A DNA stretch of 64,000 nt from Anaeromyxobacter dehalogenans 2CP-C (GTDB lineage Bacteria; Myxococcota; Myxococcia; Myxococcales; Anaeromyxobacteraceae): assembly GCF_000013385.1 (NCBI RefSeq), contig NC_007760.1:2481001-2545000 (forward strand). The letters are read 5' to 3'. Made by a program: the position numbers and the translations under genes. The notes below the pieces were generated by a model. The model was not told the DNA's origin. It ran no database searches and saw only the letters and a list, made by a program, of their open reading frames with translations. Positions 3,357 to 20,460 of the stretch are shown piece after piece. Every line of letters starts with the position of its first letter. The stretch's first letter is position 1.

Positions 3357-3575
3357 CCGGGTCTCCTTGGCGCCGCACTGGTCCGGCGCGAGGACGCACG
3401 AATAGTCGGCGCGGCCCGCGGGGGCAAGCGCGCCGCCGCGCGCATCCGCGCGCCGGGGACGGGCGTTCTCGCGCCCCCCGGGCAGCCGCGGCCGGGTGCC
3501 GGGGCGGCGCTGGCGCTCGCCACCCCGGCGGCCTCTCGCCCGCCTCCGGGGCGGATCCGGGAGCCGTGGTGACGG

Positions 3576-5480
3576 TCAGTAGACGATCACCGCGTCCGGC
3601 GCGAGCAGGCCCGAGGTCGCGTCCACCTGCACCAGCGCGATGCGCCGGGTCGCGTCGGCGGAGAAGAACGCGAAGCGGCCGTGCGAGACGAAGCCCTTGC
3701 CGCCCACGCCGACGCGGGTCAGCGGGATCACCTCCTGGAGCGCCAGGTAGTCCTGGCCGAACAGCCGGAGCTCGGTGTCGGCGGCAGGGTTCGCCGGCCA
3801 GGACGGCAGGCCCGGCACGACCAGGATCTGCCCGGCGGCGAGCGAGTGGTCGGCCCACTTCACCTGCCCGGTGCCCTCCAGCGCGCCGGCGTAGGTCATG
3901 TCCGAGCCGGCGGTGGAGCCCTGCGTCGTGTTCGAGTGGAAGGTGTTGCCACAGGCGGTCACGATGCGCAGCCCGTCCTCGGTGATCCAGAGATCGCCGC
4001 ACATCGCGTAGTCGCCGTGGTACGGCGAGTCGTACAGGAACGACGCCGCCCCGCCGGAGATCGAGAACTTCCGGATGTCGGCGGGCGACACGAAGTTGTC
4101 GGCGCCGTAGAGCGCCGCGCCGCCCGGGTGCAGCTTCGCCTTCGTGCCGTCGAACGGGCTCCACCCGGTGCTCGGCGTGTCCACGCCGGTCGAGATCCGG
4201 ATGCCGTGGATCTGGTCCCACGCCGTCGGGAACACGTAGATCCAGCCGTTGCCCGCCAGCACCACGTCGGACGGGACCACGCTGGTGGCGAAGGTGCCGA
4301 CCACCGCCGGCGGCGCGTCCAGCTTCACGTAGGAGACCGCGGCGTCGTGGCCGACCGCGGCGTAGTGCCCGTCCGGCGACACGCTGACGGCGAGCGCCGC
4401 CTTCGGGAGCGTCACCGTCACCTCCGCGCCGGCGACGGGATCCGCCACGTAGAGCCGCGAGCCCCCCACCGCCACGATCCGGTCGAGCGCGCGCGAGTAC
4501 TCCGCGTCGGCGACGGCGTGGCCCAGCATCCACACCTTCTGGTGCACGGTGACCTGCACCGTGTCCGCCGCCGCGCTCGCGAGCTGGCCGTCGTGGACGG
4601 CCAGCGAGAACGCGTACACGCCCTCGAGGTCGTAGGTGACGGAGGGCGCGCACGCGCCCGGATCCGAGAGCGCGGCGGCGCTGCCGGCCGGCTTCGCCGT
4701 GAGCGCCCAGGCGCAGGTGATCGGGTCCTGGTCCGGATCGGTCGAGGCGGCGGCGCTGAGCGGGAGCGTCGCGCCGGCGTTGGACTCGAGATCCGGCCCC
4801 GCGTCCGCGATCGGGGCGTGGTTGCGGACGGTGACGGTCACGTCGTCCTCCGCGGAGAGCACGCCGTCGCTCACGGTGAGGCGGACCACGTAGGCGCCGT
4901 AGACGTCCGGCGTGAAGGACGCCTGGGCGAGCGCCGCGCCGGTGAGCGCCGCGGCGCTGCCGTCCGGGCGGGCCACCAGCGTCCACGCGTGGGTGATCGC
5001 GTCCCCGTCCGGATCCGAGCTGGCGCGGCCGTCGAGCGCGACCGCGATCCCCCGGCTCCCCTCCCGGTCGGCGCCGGCCGCGGCGACGGGCGCCAGGTTC
5101 TGGCTGGTGATGACCACGTCGTCGGACACCGGCGCGTTCAGCCCGTCGGACACCTGCAGGCGCACCACGTAGGCGCCCGGCAGGTCGGCGACGAAGGACG
5201 CCCGCTCGGAGGCGGCGAGCTGGATGACGGCCGCGCTGCCCGCGGGGCGAGAGACGAACGTCCACCCGTAGCTGAGCGGGAAGCCCTCCGGATCGCGGCT
5301 GGCCGAGCCGTCGAGCTGGACCAGCGCGCCCTTCGCGACGGCGCGGTCGAAGCCGGCCTGCGCGATGGGCGGGGCGTTGCCCGGGATCACCGGGACGGCG
5401 GGCCCGTCGCTCCCGCCGCTGCAGGCGAGCAGGGTGCAGAGCGCGAGGGCCGCGGGGACGCGGCGGCGAGCGGAGCGCAT
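3576..5480 (-). CDS. PKD-domain lipoprotein with C-terminal propeller-like domain
   Basis: A 634-residue secreted lipoprotein. The signal peptide RRRVPAALALCTLLAC gives a lipobox with Cys20 as the lipidated residue, followed by SGGSDG. Three consecutive PKD-type repeats follow (about residues 30-120, 120-215 and 215-310). Each starts with an N-x-A-P-x-A-x-A-G motif and contains L-x-G-x-x-S-x-D-P-(E/D)-G. The last 320 residues contain repeated short strands (LYVADP, VSVSPDGHYAAVG, WIYVFP) like a YVTN/WD-type propeller. The ATG at 5480 has GGAGG about 8 nt upstream and starts exactly at the signal peptide, so a longer upstream ATG was rejected. The role is probably surface binding or adhesion. 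No catalytic motif was seen. Confidence 0.88.
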   Translation of the reverse strand: MRSARRRVPAALALCTLLACSGGSDGPAVPVIPGNAPPIAQAGFDRAVAKGALVQLDGSASRDPEGFPLSYGWTFVSRPAGSAAVIQLAASERASFVADLPGAYVVRLQVSDGLNAPVSDDVVITSQNLAPVAAAGADREGSRGIAVALDGRASSDPDGDAITHAWTLVARPDGSAAALTGAALAQASFTPDVYGAYVVRLTVSDGVLSAEDDVTVTVRNHAPIADAGPDLESNAGATLPLSAAASTDPDQDPITCAWALTAKPAGSAAALSDPGACAPSVTYDLEGVYAFSLAVHDGQLASAAADTVQVTVHQKVWMLGHAVADAEYSRALDRIVAVGGSRLYVADPVAGAEVTVTLPKAALAVSVSPDGHYAAVGHDAAVSYVKLDAPPAVVGTFATSVVPSDVVLAGNGWIYVFPTAWDQIHGIRISTGVDTPSTGWSPFDGTKAKLHPGGAALYGADNFVSPADIRKFSISGGAASFLYDSPYHGDYAMCGDLWITEDGLRIVTACGNTFHSNTTQGSTAGSDMTYAGALEGTGQVKWADHSLAAGQILVVPGLPSWPANPAADTELRLFGQDYLALQEVIPLTRVGVGGKGFVSHGRFAFFSADATRRIALVQVDATSGLLAPDAVIVY

Positions 5481-8178: not shown

Positions 8179-9303
8179 ATGGACCGGATCCTCTCGTCCT
8201 GGGTGCGGGACGCGCGGGCGCGCACGCTCGGGCTGGCGGCGTCGCTGCCGGCGGACGGCCTGCTCGGCCCGCGGCTCGCGATCGTCAACCCGCCGCTCTG
8301 GGAGCTGGGGCACGTGGCCTGGTTCCAGGAGCGCTGGGTGCTGCGCCACGCCGCCGGCCGGCCGCCGCTCCGGGGCGGCGCCGACGCGCTCTACGACTCC
8401 ATCGCCATCCCGCACGACGTCCGCTGGGACCTGCCGCTCCCCTCGCTGGAGGAGACCGTCGGGTACCTGCGCGAGGTCGAGGCCGGCGTGCTCGCGCTGC
8501 TCGAGCGCGGCGAGGCGGATCCCTACTTCGTGCGGCTCTCGGTGTTCCACGAGGACATGCACTGGGAGGCGATGGCGTTCTCGCGCCAGACGCTGGGCTG
8601 GCCGGCGCCGCCCGGGCTCCCGCCCCGCACGGCCGGCGAGGCGCGCGAGGGCGACGCCGCGCTGCCGGGCGGGACGTTCCGGCTCGGCGCCGCGCCCGGC
8701 GGCGGGTTCGTGTTCGACAACGAGAAGTGGGCGCACCCGGTGGAGCTGGCGCCGTTCCGGATCGCCCGCGCCCCGGTGACCGAGGCGCGGTTCGCCGAGT
8801 TCGTGGACGACGGCGGCTACCGCCGGCGCGCGCTGTGGAGCGAGGCCGGCTGGCGCTGGCGAGAGGCCGCCGGGGCCGAGCGCCCGGCGTACTGGGAGCG
8901 CGCGGCGAACGGGTGGCGGCGGCGGGAGTTCGACCGCCCCGTGCCGCTCGCGGCGGGCCGCCCGGTGGCGCACGTGTGCGCGCACGAGGCGGACGCGTTC
9001 TGCCGCTGGGCCGGGCGGCGCCTGCCGACCGAGGCGGAGTGGGAGGCGGCGGCCACCGCGGAGGGCGCCCCGCTCGGCGGCGCCGGCCGCGTGTGGGAGT
9101 GGACCGCGAGCGACTTCCTCCCCTACCCCGGCTTCGCCCCCGATCCCTACCGCGAGTACTCGCAGCCCTGGTTCGGCACGCACCGGGTGCTGCGCGGCGG
9201 CAGCTTCGCCACGCCGGCGCGCCTGCTGCGCCCCACCTTCCGCAACTTCTACACGCCCGACCGCCGCGATCCCTGGGCGGGGTTCCGGACCTGCGCGGCG
9301 TGA
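8179..9303 (+). CDS. senA: Selenoneine synthase SenA-like nonheme iron enzyme (EgtB family)
   Basis: A 374-residue member of the EgtB/SenA family. An N-terminal DinB-like four-helix domain carries the three-histidine iron site: His45 in ELGHVAWFQERW, and His124 and His128 in FHEDMHWEA. The C-terminal formylglycine-enzyme (sulfatase-modifying) domain, residues about 160-374, contains RLPTEAEWEAAA, VWEWTASDF and HRVLRGGSFAT. SenA is known to couple a selenosugar to hercynine. I assign SenA rather than EgtB because the next gene, overlapping by 4 nt, is a SenB-type glycosyltransferase. ATG at 8179 with AGAGG upstream. Hercynine synthase EgtD and a SenC/SelD-like selenophosphate synthetase are not in the window. 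Confidence 0.82.
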   Translation: MDRILSSWVRDARARTLGLAASLPADGLLGPRLAIVNPPLWELGHVAWFQERWVLRHAAGRPPLRGGADALYDSIAIPHDVRWDLPLPSLEETVGYLREVEAGVLALLERGEADPYFVRLSVFHEDMHWEAMAFSRQTLGWPAPPGLPPRTAGEAREGDAALPGGTFRLGAAPGGGFVFDNEKWAHPVELAPFRIARAPVTEARFAEFVDDGGYRRRALWSEAGWRWREAAGAERPAYWERAANGWRRREFDRPVPLAAGRPVAHVCAHEADAFCRWAGRRLPTEAEWEAAATAEGAPLGGAGRVWEWTASDFLPYPGFAPDPYREYSQPWFGTHRVLRGGSFATPARLLRPTFRNFYTPDRRDPWAGFRTCAA

Positions 9304-10253
9304 GGATCGTCATCGCCACGCCGGCCGCCCGCGGCTCGCACAAGGGCAACCGCGTCACCGCGCTGCGCTGGGCCGGCCACCTGCGCGCGCTCGGCCACCG
9401 CGTCGCGCTGGCCGACGCCTGGGACGGCGCGCCGTGCGACCTGCTCGTGGCGCTGCACGCGACGAAGAGCCACGCCTCGGTGCTCCGCTGGCGCGAGGTC
9501 CGCCCGGAGGCGCCGCTGGTGGTGGGGATGGCAGGGACCGACCTGTACCAGGACCTGCCCGCGTCGCCGGAGGCGCGCCGCTCGCTCGCGCTCGCCACCC
9601 GCGTCACGGTGCTGCAGGCGCGCGGGCTCGAGGCGCTGCCCCCCGAGATCCGCCCCCGGGCCCGGGTCATCGAGCAGTCGGCGCAGGCGGCCCCGCCCAC
9701 GCCGCCGCCCCAGGGCGTGTTCCGCGCCTGCCTGCTCGCGCACGTGCGCGCGGTCAAGGACGCCTTCCTCGCCGCCGCGGCCGCGCGCCGCCTCCCCGCC
9801 GGCTCGCGCGTCCAGATCGCCCACCTCGGCGCCGCGCTCGACGCGGATGCCGCGCCCGCCGCGCGGGCCGAGATGGCGGCGAACCCGCGGTACCTCTGGA
9901 TGGGCGAGCACCGCCGGCGCGAGGCGCTCTCGGTCCTCGCCGGGAGCCAGCTGCTCGTCATCACCTCGCGCCTGGAGGGCGGCTCGAACGCGCTCTCCGA
10001 GGCGGTCGCGGCCGGGGTCCCGGTGCTCTCGACCCGCATCGACGGGACCGTCGGGCTCCTCGGTCCCGACCACCCCGGCTACTTCCCGGTGGGCGACGAT
10101 CGCGCCCTTGCCGGGCTCCTCCTCAGGGCGGAGCAGGAGCCCGCGTTCCTCGCCGGGCTGCGGCGCTCGACGGCGCGCGCGAGGCCGCTCGTCGAGCCCG
10201 CGCGCGAGCGGGAGGCCTGGCGCCGGCTCCTCGGCGAGCTGTTCCCCGCCTGA
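9300..10253 (+). CDS. senB: Selenosugar synthase SenB-like glycosyltransferase (TIGR04348 type)
   Basis: A 317-residue GT-B-fold glycosyltransferase. GTG start at 9300 overlaps the senA stop (GTGA). The N-terminal half holds KGNRVTALRWAGHLRALGH, DLLVALHATKSHASVLRW and PLVVGMAGTDLYQDL, which I recognise as conserved in the SenB/TIGR04348 family. The C-terminal half has the glycosyltransferase-4 type nucleotide-sugar site LLVITSRLEGGSNALSEAVAAGVPVLST. SenB is reported to join selenophosphate to a UDP-sugar, making the selenosugar used by SenA. The translational overlap supports joint function. A sulfur-sugar role cannot be excluded from sequence. Confidence 0.82.
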   Translation: MRIVIATPAARGSHKGNRVTALRWAGHLRALGHRVALADAWDGAPCDLLVALHATKSHASVLRWREVRPEAPLVVGMAGTDLYQDLPASPEARRSLALATRVTVLQARGLEALPPEIRPRARVIEQSAQAAPPTPPPQGVFRACLLAHVRAVKDAFLAAAAARRLPAGSRVQIAHLGAALDADAAPAARAEMAANPRYLWMGEHRRREALSVLAGSQLLVITSRLEGGSNALSEAVAAGVPVLSTRIDGTVGLLGPDHPGYFPVGDDRALAGLLLRAEQEPAFLAGLRRSTARARPLVEPAREREAWRRLLGELFPA

Positions 10254-10380
10254 CCTCCGGGTCGCGCCGCGCGGACGCGCCGGGGCCCCGGCGGCGGGAT
10301 GCCATGGGCGGCGGATCACCGCTCCTCCGGACCTCCGACGTGGTACACAGGCCGGGGCGGGGACCCGAGAAGAGGAGCGC

Positions 10381-11364
10381 GTGCGCGTCACCTCGCTGAT
10401 CGCTGCCTTGGCGCTGCTCGCGGCCTGCGGAGATCGCCGGCCGCCGCGGACCCGCCTGGTCCTCGCCTCGGTGCGGCAGCCCGCCACCGCGCTCCCCGCG
10501 CTCGCGGCCGCGAGCGGCTGCTTCGCGGCGGAGGGGCTGGACGTCGAGGAGCGGTCCTTCGACCTGGGGCGCGACGCGCTCGCGCTGCTCCGCTCGGGCG
10601 GCGCCGACGTGGCGGTCGCGTTCGAGACGCCGGTGCTGCAGGCTGCGCACGCGGACGGCCGGCTGCGCGCGCTGACGGCGCTGCACACCTCGACGCGCAA
10701 CACGCGCCTGGTGGTGCGCGCGCCGAGCGGGATCCGCGGCTTCTCCGACCTGGCCGGCCGCCGGATCGGCCTGGCGCCGGGGACGAACGCCGACTTCTTC
10801 GCCGACCTGGCGCTCCGGCTGGGCGGCGTCCCGCGCGACCAGGTCACCCTCGTGCACGGCGCGCCGGCCGAGTCGATCGAGGCGCTCGCCGCGGGCACGC
10901 TCGACGCGGCCGTGCTCTCCGACCCGGCCGCGCAGGAGGCCGAGCGCCGCCTCGGGCCCGACGCGCAGGTGTTCCAGACCGACCTCTACGTCGAGATCTC
11001 GCTCCTCGTGACGCGCGACGACGTGCTGGCGGCGCGGCCCGCCGCGCTCCGGGCGATGCTGCGTGGCCTGGCCTGCGGCGAGCGGCGCGCCCGGGCCGAT
11101 CGCGAGGAGGCGCGGGCGCGGATCCGCGACCGGTTCCCGGAGACCGGCGACGCCGCGCTCGCGGCGCAGCTGGAGCGGGTGCGCTGGGGGGTCGGGCTGG
11201 ACAACGTGCTCGTGGACGTGCTGCGCCGCGAGCGCGACGCGCTCACCGCCGCGGGCGCGCTGCGCGGCGAGGTGCCCGACCTCCACCAGCTGCTGGCGCC
11301 GGCCCTGCTCGAGCAGGTCGCGCCCGAGTCCGTCATGCTGCTCCCCGGGGACGCGCGATGGTGA
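10381..11364 (+). CDS. NMT1/THI5-like (SsuA/TauA-type) substrate-binding lipoprotein
   Basis: A 327-residue periplasmic binding protein of the NMT1/sulfonate-nitrate type. The signal peptide ends in LALLAAC, with Cys16 as the lipidation site. The mature part has the fold landmarks GCFAAEGLDVEERSF, GGADVAVAFETP, LAGRRIGLAPGTNADFFADLAL and AGTLDAAVLSDPA. GTG at 10381 is preceded by AGAGGAG. No ABC permease or ATPase is adjacent; instead the stop codon overlaps the start of a hybrid histidine kinase by 7 nt. I infer that it presents ligand to that kinase rather than, or as well as, to a transporter. The ligand is unknown. Confidence 0.87.
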   Translation: MRVTSLIAALALLAACGDRRPPRTRLVLASVRQPATALPALAAASGCFAAEGLDVEERSFDLGRDALALLRSGGADVAVAFETPVLQAAHADGRLRALTALHTSTRNTRLVVRAPSGIRGFSDLAGRRIGLAPGTNADFFADLALRLGGVPRDQVTLVHGAPAESIEALAAGTLDAAVLSDPAAQEAERRLGPDAQVFQTDLYVEISLLVTRDDVLAARPAALRAMLRGLACGERRARADREEARARIRDRFPETGDAALAAQLERVRWGVGLDNVLVDVLRRERDALTAAGALRGEVPDLHQLLAPALLEQVAPESVMLLPGDARW

Positions 11365-13259
11365 CCGTCGGCCGGCGCCTGCTCGTGCCGACCACCCTCC
11401 TCGCCGCGGTGGCCTGCGCGGCGCTGGCGTACGCGGCGTGGTCGTCCGCGCAGCAGGCGCGCACCCTGGAGCGCGACGCGCGGGCGGTGCGGACCGCCAT
11501 CTCCCTGGCGTTCGCGCTCGGCGACGCGACGCACGAGGAGGAGCGCTGGTTCCTGTCGCTGCCGCGCGCGCACGGCGGCGTGCAGGAGACCCGGCTCGAC
11601 GAGGCCGGCGCGCGCATCGCCGGGCTGATGCGCGACCTCGAGGCGCTCCCGCTCCCGGCGCGCGTCGCCGACGTCTGGCGCGAGTACGTCGAGGTCCGGG
11701 CCGCGCAGGACGCGCTCGGCGACGACATCCGCCGGGTCGCGCCGCAGGGCGGCGCCGCGCTCGAGCGCGCCCTGGATCGCTGGCGGCTCATGTCGTTCCG
11801 CAGCGAGGCGCTGCTGAAGGACGTGTCCGGCTACTACCTGCGCTTCCTCGACCGGATCGTGGTCGAGCTGCAGGCGCGCCGGGCCCGCGCGCTCTGGATC
11901 TCGGCGGCCGCGGTGGTGGTGGGCCTGCTGGCGGCCGCGGCGCTCTCGCTGCTGGCGGCGCGCGCGGTGGTGCGGCCGCTCGAGGCCATCGCCCGCACCG
12001 CCGAGCGGATCGCCGAGACCAGCCTCCCCGCCGAGGTGGCCGGGGCGGAGCGGCCCGACGAGATCGGCACCCTCTCCCGCGCGTTCAACCGGATGACCGG
12101 GCGGCTGGTCAGCGCCAACGCCCGCCTCACCGAGATCGACCGGCGCAAGGACGAGTTCCTGGGGATGCTCTCGCACGAGCTCCGCAACCCGCTCGCGCCC
12201 ATCCGCAGCGCGCTGCACCTGCTGTCGCACCCCGCGGCGCGCCCGGCGCAGACCCGCCGCGCCCTGGAGGTCATCGGCCGGCAGGTGGACCACCTGACCC
12301 GCATCGTGGACGACCTGCTCGACGTCACCCGCATCGCGCGCGGCAAGATCGAGCTGCGCCGGGAGCGCGTGGACCTCGCCGAGGTGGTCGCGCGCACGGC
12401 CGAGGACTACCGGGACCTGCTGGACGACCGCCGCATCGCGCTCGAGGTCGGGCTGCCCGGCGGGCCGCTCTGGGCGGACGCCGACCCCACCCGCGTGGCG
12501 CAGGTGATCGGCAACCTGCTCAGCAACGCGGGCAAGTTCACGCCGCCGGGCGGCCGCGTCACGGTGCGCGCGGACGCGCGCGGCGGGCGCGCGGTGATCC
12601 GGGTGATCGACACCGGCGTGGGCATGCCGCCCGAGCTGCTCGGGCGGATCTTCGAGCCGTTCGTGCAGGCGGATCGATCGCTGGCGCGGAGCGCCGGGGG
12701 GCTCGGCCTGGGGCTCTCGCTGGTGAAGGGGATCGTCGAGCTGCACGGCGGCGCGGTCGAGGCCCGCAGCGCCGGGCCCGGCGCCGGCAGCGAGCTGGTG
12801 CTCGAGCTGCCGCTGGCCGCCGGGGGCCCGGGGCAGCTGGCCGCGCCGTCGGCGGCGCCGGCCGGCGCGGCGGGGCCGCGGCGCGTGCTGATCGTGGACG
12901 ACAACGTGGACGCGGCCGAGACGCTCGCCGAGCTGCTCCGCCACGCCGGGCACGCGGTCGCGGTGGCGCACGACGGCCCGGGCGCGCTGGCGGCGGCGCG
13001 CGCCGACCCGCCCGAGGTGGTGCTCTGCGACATCGGCCTGCCCGGCATGAGCGGGTACGACGTGGCGCGGGCGCTCCGGCGGGAGCGCGGGCCGGGCCTG
13101 CTGCTGGTGGCGGTGAGCGGCTACGCCCAGCCGGAGGACGTGGACGCCGCCCACGAGGCCGGCTTCGACCGGCACCTGGCGAAGCCGCCGCGGCCGGACG
13201 AGGTGGAGCGCGCCGTGGTGGCGCCGCCCGCCGGGACCCGCGCCGGCGCGGGCAACTGA
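11358..13259 (+). CDS. Hybrid histidine kinase with HAMP and C-terminal receiver domain
   Basis: A 633-residue membrane sensor kinase. TM1 spans about residues 8-28 and TM2 about 178-202, enclosing a periplasmic helical region of about 150 residues. HAMP covers about 203-255. The HisKA domain has H273 in GMLSHELRNPLAPIRSAL. The ATPase domain shows the N box NLLSNAGKF, G1 DTGVGMPP and G2 GGLGLGLSLVKG. A receiver follows (about 507-620) with IVDDN, phosphoacceptor Asp558 in LCDIGLPGMSGYDV, and Lys609. The ATG at 11358 overlaps the preceding binding-protein gene (ATGGTGA). There is no DNA-binding output, so another regulator or phosphotransfer protein must act downstream; none is adjacent. Confidence 0.92.
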   Translation: MVTVGRRLLVPTTLLAAVACAALAYAAWSSAQQARTLERDARAVRTAISLAFALGDATHEEERWFLSLPRAHGGVQETRLDEAGARIAGLMRDLEALPLPARVADVWREYVEVRAAQDALGDDIRRVAPQGGAALERALDRWRLMSFRSEALLKDVSGYYLRFLDRIVVELQARRARALWISAAAVVVGLLAAAALSLLAARAVVRPLEAIARTAERIAETSLPAEVAGAERPDEIGTLSRAFNRMTGRLVSANARLTEIDRRKDEFLGMLSHELRNPLAPIRSALHLLSHPAARPAQTRRALEVIGRQVDHLTRIVDDLLDVTRIARGKIELRRERVDLAEVVARTAEDYRDLLDDRRIALEVGLPGGPLWADADPTRVAQVIGNLLSNAGKFTPPGGRVTVRADARGGRAVIRVIDTGVGMPPELLGRIFEPFVQADRSLARSAGGLGLGLSLVKGIVELHGGAVEARSAGPGAGSELVLELPLAAGGPGQLAAPSAAPAGAAGPRRVLIVDDNVDAAETLAELLRHAGHAVAVAHDGPGALAAARADPPEVVLCDIGLPGMSGYDVARALRRERGPGLLLVAVSGYAQPEDVDAAHEAGFDRHLAKPPRPDEVERAVVAPPAGTRAGAGN

Positions 13260-13297: not shown

Positions 13298-13681
13298 ATG
13301 CCGCTCGTCCGGATCGACACCACCCTGCGCCTCGGCCCCGAGCAGCGGCGCGCCGCCGGCGACGCCGTGCACCGCGCGCTCGTGGACACGTTCAAGGTCC
13401 CCCCCGACGACCGCTTCCAGGTGATCGCGGGCCACGGCGACGAGGGGCTGAGCATCGCCCCGAGCTACCTCGGCATCGACCACGGCAAGGACGTGGTGGT
13501 GGTGCAGATCACCGCCAACGCCGGGCGGACCGTGGACATGAAGCGCGCGCTCTTCCGGCGCGTCGCCGACGACCTGCACGCAGCGGTCGGCGTCCGCCGC
13601 GAGGACGTCATCGTCAGCCTGGTCGAGGTGGCGAAGGAGAACTGGTCGTTCGGGAACGGCGAGGCGCAGTACGCGACCTGA
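13298..13681 (+). CDS. Tautomerase-superfamily protein
   Basis: A 127-residue protein beginning MPLVRIDTTLRL. After Met removal, Pro1 would be the catalytic base of the tautomerase (4-OT/MSAD) superfamily. The length and the conserved stretch YLGIDHGKDVVVVQITANAGRTVDMKRALFRRVADDL match the YusQ-like tautomerase branch; GVRREDVIVSLVEVAKENWSFGNGEAQY is the characteristic C-terminus. It probably acts on small enol or keto acids; the substrate is not known. ATG at 13298 with GGAGG upstream. It lies 38 nt after the hybrid kinase, which could place it at the end of that operon. Confidence 0.9.
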   Translation: MPLVRIDTTLRLGPEQRRAAGDAVHRALVDTFKVPPDDRFQVIAGHGDEGLSIAPSYLGIDHGKDVVVVQITANAGRTVDMKRALFRRVADDLHAAVGVRREDVIVSLVEVAKENWSFGNGEAQYAT

Positions 13682-17763: not shown

Positions 17764-20460
17764 ATGATCCGACGGACACTGCTGCTCGCGGCGCTCGGCC
17801 TCGTGGTCGTCGCCTGCGAGGGCGCGAAGGGCCCTGCCGGCGCACCCGGGCGCGACGGCACGAACGGGCAGGACGGCCAGGACGGTTCCAACGGCACCTC
17901 CTGCACCGTCACCGACAACCACGACGGCACCCACACCATCACCTGCACCGACGGCACCTCCGTGACCGTGTCGAACGGCGCGACCGGCGGGAACGTCGCG
18001 ATCACCGACTTCCACGGCGCCGCGTTCATGAAGTCGAGCGGCGAGTACGCCACCGGCAAGTTCGACGTGAAGGTGACCATCACCAGCGCGACCGCCGCGG
18101 CCGACGGCACGCTGGCGGTGGACTTCACCGCCGCCACCCCCGGTGCCGGCGGGCAGCCGGTCCCGGGCATCGCCGCCATCACCGCCGACGTGGCGAAGCT
18201 CGTCCCCGGCACCGCCACGGAGCGGGCCTCCCGCTTCGTGCCGTACATCACGCGCATCGAGACCGCCACCACCGGCGACTGGCCGAACCCGGCCGGCACC
18301 ACCGCGGTCCAGGGCAACACCGAGGGCAACGGCGCGCTCACCGACCACGGCGACGGCAGCTACACCTACGTGTTCGCCACCAACCTCGCGAACGCGACCA
18401 CGGAGGGCGCGCCGGTCGGCTACCAGCGCAACCTGCTGCACCGCGTGTCGGTGATGATCGGCGGCCACGACGGCCCCACCGGCGAGGCCACCTTCGACTT
18501 CGTGCCGGACGGCTCCGCGATCACCACCACCCGCAACATCGTCCAGACCGCCGCCTGCAAGGCGTGCCACGGCGAGGAGTTCCACGGGCACGGCGGCAAC
18601 CGCCTCTCGGTCGAGAACTGCGCCACCTGCCACGTGCCCGGCACCGCCGACGCGAACGGCGGCCAGAGCCTCGACCTCGCGGTCATGATCCACAAGATCC
18701 ACGCGGGCGGCGAGCTGGCCAGCCTGCCCGGCGCGGACGGCAAGATCTGGGACGACCCGAGCACGCCGGCGGACGAGTCCGCCGACAACGGCGAGTACGC
18801 GATCTGGGGCTACCGGAACACCAAGCACGAGTGGTGGAAGGCCGAGTTCCCGGCCGTGCTCGCGAACTGCCAGAAGTGCCACACCGGCACCGGCGCGCAG
18901 GTGGACAACTGGAAGACGAACCCCACCCGCCAGGCCTGCGGCTCCTGCCACGACACGGTGGACTTCGCCACCGGCGCGAACCACCTGGGCGGCGCCCAGG
19001 CGGACGACTCCGGGTGCGCGACCTGCCACGGCGCGACCACCGGCTGGGCGCCCATCGTGCCCGCGCACGACTGGACGACGAAGGATCCGCGCAACGTCCC
19101 CGAGTTCGACGCGGAGCTGTCGCTGTCCGCGCCCGCGAACGGCAAGTACTACGTGGCCGGCGAGGCGCCGGTCGTCACGGTGGTCCTGAAGGACAAGGCG
19201 ACGGGGACGCCCATCGACCACGACCTCGTCACCGGCGCGGCGCTCGGGTGCCTCCCCACCGGCTGCCCGGCCCCGACCAGCCCCACCACCTTCGCGAACA
19301 CCGCCTTCTTCATGAGCGGCCCGCGCGCCACGCGCAACCCGGTGCTCACCACCACCGCGCGCGCCAAGATCGAGGCCGCCGCGCCCGCCTCGTGGGACCT
19401 CTCCGGCGGCGCCGCGCTGGCGCTCAAGGTGGACAACGGCCGGGACGTCACCATGTACAACCAGACCGGCGGTGACTTCGTCGCGTCCGGGACCATCTCG
19501 GTGACCGTGCCGGCGGCGGCGTTCGCGAACCCGGCCGCGGCGACGCCCGCGGAGCTGGCGGCCGGCCTGAACGCCATCCCGGCCTTCAGCCGCCGCGCCA
19601 TCGCCTACGTCGAGGGCGGCCGCTTCGGCATCCGCAGCCGCAACCTGGGCCGCCTCTACGCGATCCAGCTCGATCCCAGCGCGGTGACGACCGCCGTGTT
19701 CGGGGGCGACACCGCCCTGAAGCTGCCGGGCGGCTACTACCCGTCCAACACCCTCGCGTTCAACGCCGCGCCCGGCGCGGCGAACGACCGGAAGGTGACC
19801 CGCACCGCCGGGTCGATCACGTACCAGCTCGATCCGGTGGACGACCTGCAGCCCGGCACCTACGTCGCGAGCGTCGAGATCTCGCGGCTCGGGCGCGTGA
19901 GCGAGACGAACTACCGCACGCCCACCGTGGCGAAGGTCGCGTTCCAGGTGAAGACCGCGGCGGTGGAGAAGCCGATCGCGAGCAACTGCAACTCCTGCCA
20001 CCAGAGCGCCGACGGCCGGGGCTTCGTCCTCGACTTCTCGCGCCACAACAAGATCTTCTCCGACGACGCCGTGGACCAGTGCGGCGCGTGCCACGACTAC
20101 CAGCCCGGCTCCGCCACCGGCGCCTGGCTGGGCGGCCACCCGATCTCGAAGCGCGTCCACGCCGTGCACTTCGGGTCGAGCCTGTTCACCCCGCTCGCCA
20201 CCGTCGCCTACTCCAACGGCGACCCGGTCGCCGGCCGGAACTGGGACATCACGTTCCCGCAGGACGTCCGGAACTGCCAGGCGTGCCACCCCGACGGCAC
20301 CTCGAGCGGCACCTGGGCCGCGCGCCCGAACCGGCTCGCGTGCTGGGGCTGCCACGACGGCGACGCGGCGAAGGCGCACATGGCGCTGCAGACGCTCGAC
20401 CCGACCCCGGCGAACCCGTGGAGCGGTGACGAGCAGGAGTCCTGCCAGGCCTGCCACTAG
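17764..20460 (+). CDS. OmcA/MtrC-family decaheme c-type cytochrome lipoprotein
   Basis: An 898-residue outer-surface multiheme cytochrome, probably in extracellular electron transfer to metal oxides. The signal peptide ends LGLVVVAC (Cys18 lipidated). A collagen-like run of nine Gly-x-y triplets follows (residues about 20-46). Ten CxxCH heme motifs lie in two pentaheme clusters: Cys265, 286, 369, 392 and 418, then Cys742, 773, 838, 860 and 894. The beta-rich stretches before each cluster match the MtrC/OmcA four-domain plan. The last motif, CQACH, is the very C-terminus, so the final heme-binding His is residue 898. ATG at 17764 with AGGAG. No MtrA/MtrB-like porin genes are adjacent. Confidence 0.93.
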   Translation: MIRRTLLLAALGLVVVACEGAKGPAGAPGRDGTNGQDGQDGSNGTSCTVTDNHDGTHTITCTDGTSVTVSNGATGGNVAITDFHGAAFMKSSGEYATGKFDVKVTITSATAAADGTLAVDFTAATPGAGGQPVPGIAAITADVAKLVPGTATERASRFVPYITRIETATTGDWPNPAGTTAVQGNTEGNGALTDHGDGSYTYVFATNLANATTEGAPVGYQRNLLHRVSVMIGGHDGPTGEATFDFVPDGSAITTTRNIVQTAACKACHGEEFHGHGGNRLSVENCATCHVPGTADANGGQSLDLAVMIHKIHAGGELASLPGADGKIWDDPSTPADESADNGEYAIWGYRNTKHEWWKAEFPAVLANCQKCHTGTGAQVDNWKTNPTRQACGSCHDTVDFATGANHLGGAQADDSGCATCHGATTGWAPIVPAHDWTTKDPRNVPEFDAELSLSAPANGKYYVAGEAPVVTVVLKDKATGTPIDHDLVTGAALGCLPTGCPAPTSPTTFANTAFFMSGPRATRNPVLTTTARAKIEAAAPASWDLSGGAALALKVDNGRDVTMYNQTGGDFVASGTISVTVPAAAFANPAAATPAELAAGLNAIPAFSRRAIAYVEGGRFGIRSRNLGRLYAIQLDPSAVTTAVFGGDTALKLPGGYYPSNTLAFNAAPGAANDRKVTRTAGSITYQLDPVDDLQPGTYVASVEISRLGRVSETNYRTPTVAKVAFQVKTAAVEKPIASNCNSCHQSADGRGFVLDFSRHNKIFSDDAVDQCGACHDYQPGSATGAWLGGHPISKRVHAVHFGSSLFTPLATVAYSNGDPVAGRNWDITFPQDVRNCQACHPDGTSSGTWAARPNRLACWGCHDGDAAKAHMALQTLDPTPANPWSGDEQESCQACH

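Follow-up and report, generated by a model that had tools for sequence, protein, structure and literature searches.

A solute-binding lipoprotein paired with a hybrid histidine kinase in Anaeromyxobacter dehalogenans 2CP-C: a probable two-component ligand co-receptor

In the soil bacterium Anaeromyxobacter dehalogenans 2CP-C, a gene for a solute-binding lipoprotein runs directly into the gene of a hybrid sensor histidine kinase. The lipoprotein belongs to the NMT1 proteins, which usually serve ABC importers and whose normal annotation is transport of sulfonate, taurine or nitrate, and the question is what such a protein does in front of a kinase. The pair lies in a window of 64,000 nucleotides (the whole stretch of DNA analysed, NC_007760.1, 2,481,001 to 2,545,000) of the complete genome (5,013,479 bases); the positions below are those of the window.

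10372-10377, + strand: GAGGAG, ribosome-binding site-like, 5' of the lipoprotein gene (read from the sequence)
10381-11364, + strand: NMT1/SsuA-fold solute-binding lipoprotein, 327 aa (translation; Pfam NMT1; AlphaFold; PDB fold matches)
10381-10428, + strand: signal peptide and lipobox LAAC with lipidated Cys16, nt 10426-10428 (motif)
11221-11346, + strand: C-terminal segment of the binding protein (...LLAPALLEQVAPESVMLL), kept in signalling-linked relatives (alignments and tail comparison)
11358-11364, + strand: ATGGTGA, 7-nt stop/start overlap of the lipoprotein and kinase genes (sequence)
11358-13259, + strand: hybrid sensor histidine kinase, 633 aa (translation; Pfam domains)
11448-11888, + strand: periplasmic sensor domain, four-helix bundle, about residues 31-177 (hydropathy; AlphaFold; PDB matches)
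11955-12110, + strand: HAMP domain, residues 200-251 (Pfam E 2e-13)
12147-12338, + strand: HisKA dimerisation/phosphoacceptor domain, residues 264-327, His273 (Pfam E 9e-17; SHELRNPL)
12483-12818, + strand: HATPase_c catalytic domain, residues 376-487 (Pfam E 1e-27)
12885-13217, + strand: C-terminal receiver (REC) domain, residues 510-620, Asp558 (Pfam E 4e-21)

The gene pair and its products

The lipoprotein reading frame starts with GTG at 10381 and ends with TGA at 11362-11364, and the kinase starts with ATG at 11358; the 7-nt overlap described by the sequence-only reading is confirmed. The overlap likely reflects translational coupling and suggests matched expression. Taken alone it is unremarkable, and it is the conserved pairing, not the overlap itself, that raises the association above chance. 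As that reading had also stated, ABC genes are missing nearby: none of the genes around the pair, between 6.6 and 17.5 kb, is called as a permease or ATPase. No response regulator adjoins the pair. The genome's two other NMT1-like genes adjoin transporter genes of their own.

Two further loci of the window were recorded. The selenoneine biosynthesis genes senA and senB (8179-10253; NCBIfam SenA 517 bits against a cut-off of 420, SenB 413 against 300) end 127 bp upstream of the pair. An OmcA/MtrC-family decaheme cytochrome (17764-20460; TIGR03507, 320 bits against a cut-off of 209) has, close to its N-terminus, a glycine-rich stretch resembling collagen.

The NMT1 assignment of the lipoprotein is supported by Pfam (PF09084, E 3e-19, 70.2 bits against a gathering cut-off of 20.5), with Phosphonate-bd as a weaker match (E 1.5e-7). 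The NCBIfam models SsuA_fam (89.8 against 163.5) and taurine_ABC_bnd (TauA; 42.6 against 304) score below their cut-offs, so the protein does not qualify as a curated SsuA or TauA. The AlphaFold model is two-lobed (pLDDT 90), and its closest solved structures are TauA and SsuA, both ligand-bound, and a pyrimidine-binding relative; TM scores to TauA and SsuA are 0.70-0.76 at 16-19% identity. Gly126, Arg128, Gly130 and Pro182 are among the positions invariant across orthologues. Assignment of a ligand through the family models was ruled out, every such model scoring below its cut-off. The earlier suggestion of a sulfonate, pyrimidine or nitrogen compound accordingly finds no support beyond the generic fold, and no ligand class is proposed here beyond the usual NMT1-fold ligands.

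The lipobox is also present in the orthologues L034-L037 and L039. The residue that follows the lipidated cysteine is a glycine, which by the E. coli sorting rule directs a lipoprotein to the outer membrane. The linker after the cysteine comprises fewer than 10 residues and may not span to a sensor in the inner membrane; retention in the inner membrane therefore seems more likely, as judged from sequence, and the sorting rules of this group may differ.

Two hydrophobic segments of the kinase (about residues 8-28 and 176-208) flank about 147 periplasmic residues by hydropathy, in agreement with the helical region of about 150 residues expected from the sequence, and this region is modelled as a four-helix bundle (AlphaFold, pLDDT 85). 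The kinase retains intact catalytic motifs (His273 in SHELRNPL; the N, G1, F and G2 boxes; Asp558 and Lys609 of the receiver). The PDB matches of the sensor model include chemoreceptor and kinase sensors, among them LytS of XylFII-LytS and Adeh_2942 (Z about 16 to both, and 14 to NarQ); since bundles of this kind match a wide range of structures with fairly high Z, these values reflect the fold and neither family nor function. Membership of the TorS or LuxQ families is ruled out by scores under the equivalog cut-offs (197 against 676 for TorS, 171 against 1200 for LuxQ).

The pairing in Myxococcota and Pseudomonadota

A profile of the binding protein, run over 195 Myxococcota genomes, separates its members (E ≤ 1e-79) from the next matches (E ≥ 1e-27). 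A kinase follows the lipoprotein in 9/9 orthologues, a transporter in 0/9. The kinase is directly downstream in eight of the nine; in the ninth (G025) the lipoprotein gene is split over two contig ends, and the kinase lies downstream of the second part. In this genome (L039, L040) a kinase gene is also found upstream of the first part, and a stand-alone receiver-like gene accompanies the kinase behind the second. The three closest strains have a start/stop overlap of 7 nt, and L034-L038 one of 4 nt. Of the named relatives of the binding protein, the nearest comes from Anaeromyxobacter sp. PSR-1 (93% identity), and the pairing is retained in orthologues down to about 35% identity. The genes around it differ between Myxococcota groups, which indicates that the pair is conserved independently of its surroundings. 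Upstream, senA and senB recur in L032 and L033 and are absent from that position in L034-L036. The tautomerase gene downstream (13298-13681) was rejected as a conserved target: L032 and L033, the two closest strains, have it behind the pair and L034-L038 do not, so it suggests no regulon. The receiver domain is likewise confined to the closest strains. The description as a hybrid kinase holds for the window kinase and those of these strains and fails for L034-L038, whose kinases are plain HAMP-HisKA-HATPase proteins without REC (by Pfam for L034, L036 and L037; by length and sequence for the others).

A scan of named genomes revealed full-length relatives adjoining kinases in Rhizobacter and Janthinobacterium. 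With these and the Myxococcota proteins combined into one profile, a search of 398 Pseudomonadota genomes gave matches in 44 of them, and 48 new loci were retrieved for neighbour analysis. A membrane signal transducer (28 histidine kinases and nine GGDEF diguanylate cyclases) lies directly downstream on the same strand in 37/48, ABC genes occur in 7/48 and neither in 4/48, while 20 control NMT1 proteins, mostly weaker matches of the same profile, show ABC genes in 15/20, signalling genes in 2/20 and neither in 3/20; these fractions are rough because sampling was non-random and neighbour calls mainly BLAST-based. Within Burkholderiales, the binding protein is followed by a chemoreceptor (MCP) in L091 and by a diguanylate cyclase in L108. 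The output domain varies between kinase, GGDEF and MCP, and the binding protein with a HAMP-linked helical sensor is constant. A plasmid search returned partial matches only, to annotated transport proteins, and the one inspected adjoins ABC genes.

The sequence-only reading had proposed that the two proteins form a two-part receptor, with co-occurrence of the gene pair in other genomes as a check. The pair does recur across both phyla. The opposite arrangement, a binding protein apart from the kinase and among ABC genes, is found in none of the nine Myxococcota orthologues and in the minority of Pseudomonadota loci. Both counts support the two-part receptor, in which physical interaction of the partners is presumed.

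Some Pseudomonadota loci show elaborations of their own. In L131, L135 and L137 the binding protein gene lies between two histidine kinase genes that are followed by a receiver protein, with a GGDEF protein also present in two of the three; this arrangement suggests a branched pathway. In L146, the sensor of the kinase partner (3384-5051, - strand) is a CHASE3 domain (Pfam E 1e-29) and not the unnamed helical bundle, which hints that CHASE3 domains may take binding proteins too.

In a tree of 94 proteins (residues 22-262 of the window protein, C-terminal segment left out), the window protein falls in a group of 65 (SH-aLRT 90), with several deeper branches of the tree weakly supported. The group contains 56 signalling-linked proteins, four ABC-linked proteins in one subclade and five others, and the signalling label needs five changes on the tree against 28 when shuffled. 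Outside the main group, the signalling-linked NMT1 lines L120/L121 and L042 indicate that the association of NMT1 proteins with signalling arose more than once; for L120, L121 and L042 the partners are a hybrid kinase, a GGDEF protein and a chemoreceptor. Another NMT1 subclade (L103, L169, L172, L176) has neither ABC nor signalling neighbours and lacks the C-terminal motif. That segment was rejected as a strict marker of signalling members, as the ABC-linked subclade (L097, L141, L147, L151) has a similar one.

Divergence of the binding protein is tied to the sensor. Across 55 pairs of binding protein and transducer, the similarities of binding protein and sensor correlate at 0.81. For the 37 pairs with a recognisable kinase core, the correlation is 0.88 with the sensor and 0.63 with the core; the partial correlations are 0.79 with the sensor when the core is held fixed and 0.13 with the core when the sensor is held fixed. 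The divergence follows the sensor domain specifically, far more closely than the kinase core, with shared descent explaining part of it. Although their outputs differ, the chemoreceptor L091 and the kinase L080 share 58% identity in the binding proteins and 44% in the sensors. The sensors of most GGDEF partners are too diverged for this comparison (11-16% identity, close to the background of 13%).

Known systems and competing explanations

At least 13 families of solute-binding proteins are known to activate kinases, chemoreceptors or diguanylate cyclases (PMC9602780, PMC11113362), so the mechanism of a binding-protein-activated kinase is already known. Genes are adjacent in 10/11 characterised couples of solute-binding protein and kinase (PMC11113362), and the window pair shares two features of this class: adjacent genes and a periplasmic sensor between two transmembrane segments.

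The precedents resemble the window pair to different degrees. XylFII is a sugar-binding protein and belongs to a solute-binding family other than NMT1. The XylFII-LytS pair nevertheless comes closest structurally, as its solved complex (PDB IDs: 5xsj and 5xsd) shows a binding protein held by the four-helix-bundle extracytoplasmic sensor of a histidine kinase, the fold predicted for the window sensor. The LytS sensor and the window model superpose with Z 16.2 and an rmsd of 1.6 Å over 120 residues, yet share only about 5% sequence identity. The parallels LuxP-LuxQ and TorT-TorS drawn earlier hold in so far as each joins a periplasmic binding protein to a hybrid kinase, and the window kinase domains do score to both models; they fail as the closest structural precedent, and the kinase stays far under both cut-offs. 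TorT and LuxP are also structurally and phylogenetically distinct from the class II binding proteins of the AioX kind (PMC5908839). The latter act with their own kinases in arsenic oxyanion sensing (AioX-AioS, ArxX, ArrX), and the AioX-type protein has relatives that work as parts of ABC systems (PMC5908839). AioX itself is a PhnD-type protein, whereas the window protein scores lower for Phosphonate-bd than for NMT1, and XSR clusters include a response regulator, in contrast to the window pair. TauA and SsuA share the fold of the lipoprotein as its best PDB matches, but are only remotely identical to it and have ABC partners, of which none is called nearby or at the orthologous loci. The sensor of Adeh_2942 (PDB ID: 4k0d), also from A. 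dehalogenans 2CP-C, has the same four-helix-bundle fold at 12-13% identity, and the parts of its description that were available mention no binding-protein partner (PMC3831638).

From the gene structure, the domains, the conserved pairing, the predicted folds and the sensor-specific co-variation, we infer, with a probability of roughly four in five, that lipoprotein and kinase form a two-component ligand co-receptor like XylFII-LytS, AioX-AioS or TorT-TorS. The conjectural parts of this reading are that a ligand binds, that the partners touch directly, in which direction activity changes and how the signal is relayed downstream. The lipoprotein would be a periplasmic, membrane-anchored binding protein holding a small molecule between its two lobes. 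In one state, ligand-bound or ligand-free, it would dock on the membrane-distal part of the four-helix-bundle sensor and alter helix packing; through TM2 and HAMP, this would set autophosphorylation of His273. The phosphate might then pass to Asp558 in the receiver that the kinase itself carries, and on to an Hpt protein or response regulator encoded elsewhere, since none adjoins the pair. Several points count against a co-receptor: adjacent genes for binding protein and kinase are not always functionally linked, one ABC-linked subclade nests in the signalling group, common ancestry accounts for part of the co-variation, and the fold of the sensor is one that finds matches easily.

QseG is a lipoprotein that acts on the kinase QseE, and the solved QseG-QseE complex is among the fold matches of the sensor. 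Together with the lipid anchor and the overlapping genes, which suggest matched expression, it could point to a lipoprotein that uses its fold as a scaffold, stabilising or inhibiting the kinase or reporting the envelope state to it, with no small-molecule sensing. This is unlikely in view of the high-confidence two-lobed NMT1 model, whose best matches are ligand-bound, and of invariant positions such as Gly126, Arg128, Gly130 and Pro182. It is still less probable that the lipoprotein feeds an ABC importer encoded elsewhere and precedes the kinase by accident. Such a role would fit the usual function of NMT1 proteins and the small ABC-linked subclade, but the pairing persists in every Myxococcota orthologue in differing surroundings; this conserved context and the transporter genes beside the other NMT1-like genes led to the rejection of an orphan ABC component. 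Least probable of all is that the two proteins are adjacent and co-expressed with no physical link, the kinase itself sensing, for instance, the same compound. The four-helix bundles of NarQ, Tar and MCP2201 do bind ligands directly, and AgtS and AruS of Pseudomonas aeruginosa show no binding to their neighbouring solute-binding proteins (PMC11113362). Against this stand the co-variation of the binding protein with the sensor rather than the core and the persistence of the pairing where the output domain differs.

A wider group of NMT1 proteins in signalling

Beyond the co-receptor itself, the data favour, with less assurance, a widespread unnamed NMT1 clade used mainly for signalling. Together with the helical-bundle sensor, its members would constitute a portable two-piece receptor front end, mounted on histidine kinases, diguanylate cyclases or chemoreceptors; the window pair would represent its Myxococcota branch, and the C-terminal segment may join the docking surface. 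A search of the open-licence literature found no paper on NMT1 proteins in a signalling role or on a widespread NMT1 signalling clade.

What most sensor kinases respond to is not known, in part because some of them sense it through a separate binding protein. If the clade does serve signalling, many NMT1 transport annotations would be wrong. For dozens of kinases, diguanylate cyclases and chemoreceptors there would also be a ligand-binding partner open to testing, and screens of the soluble binding proteins would show what the NMT1-paired receptors sense.
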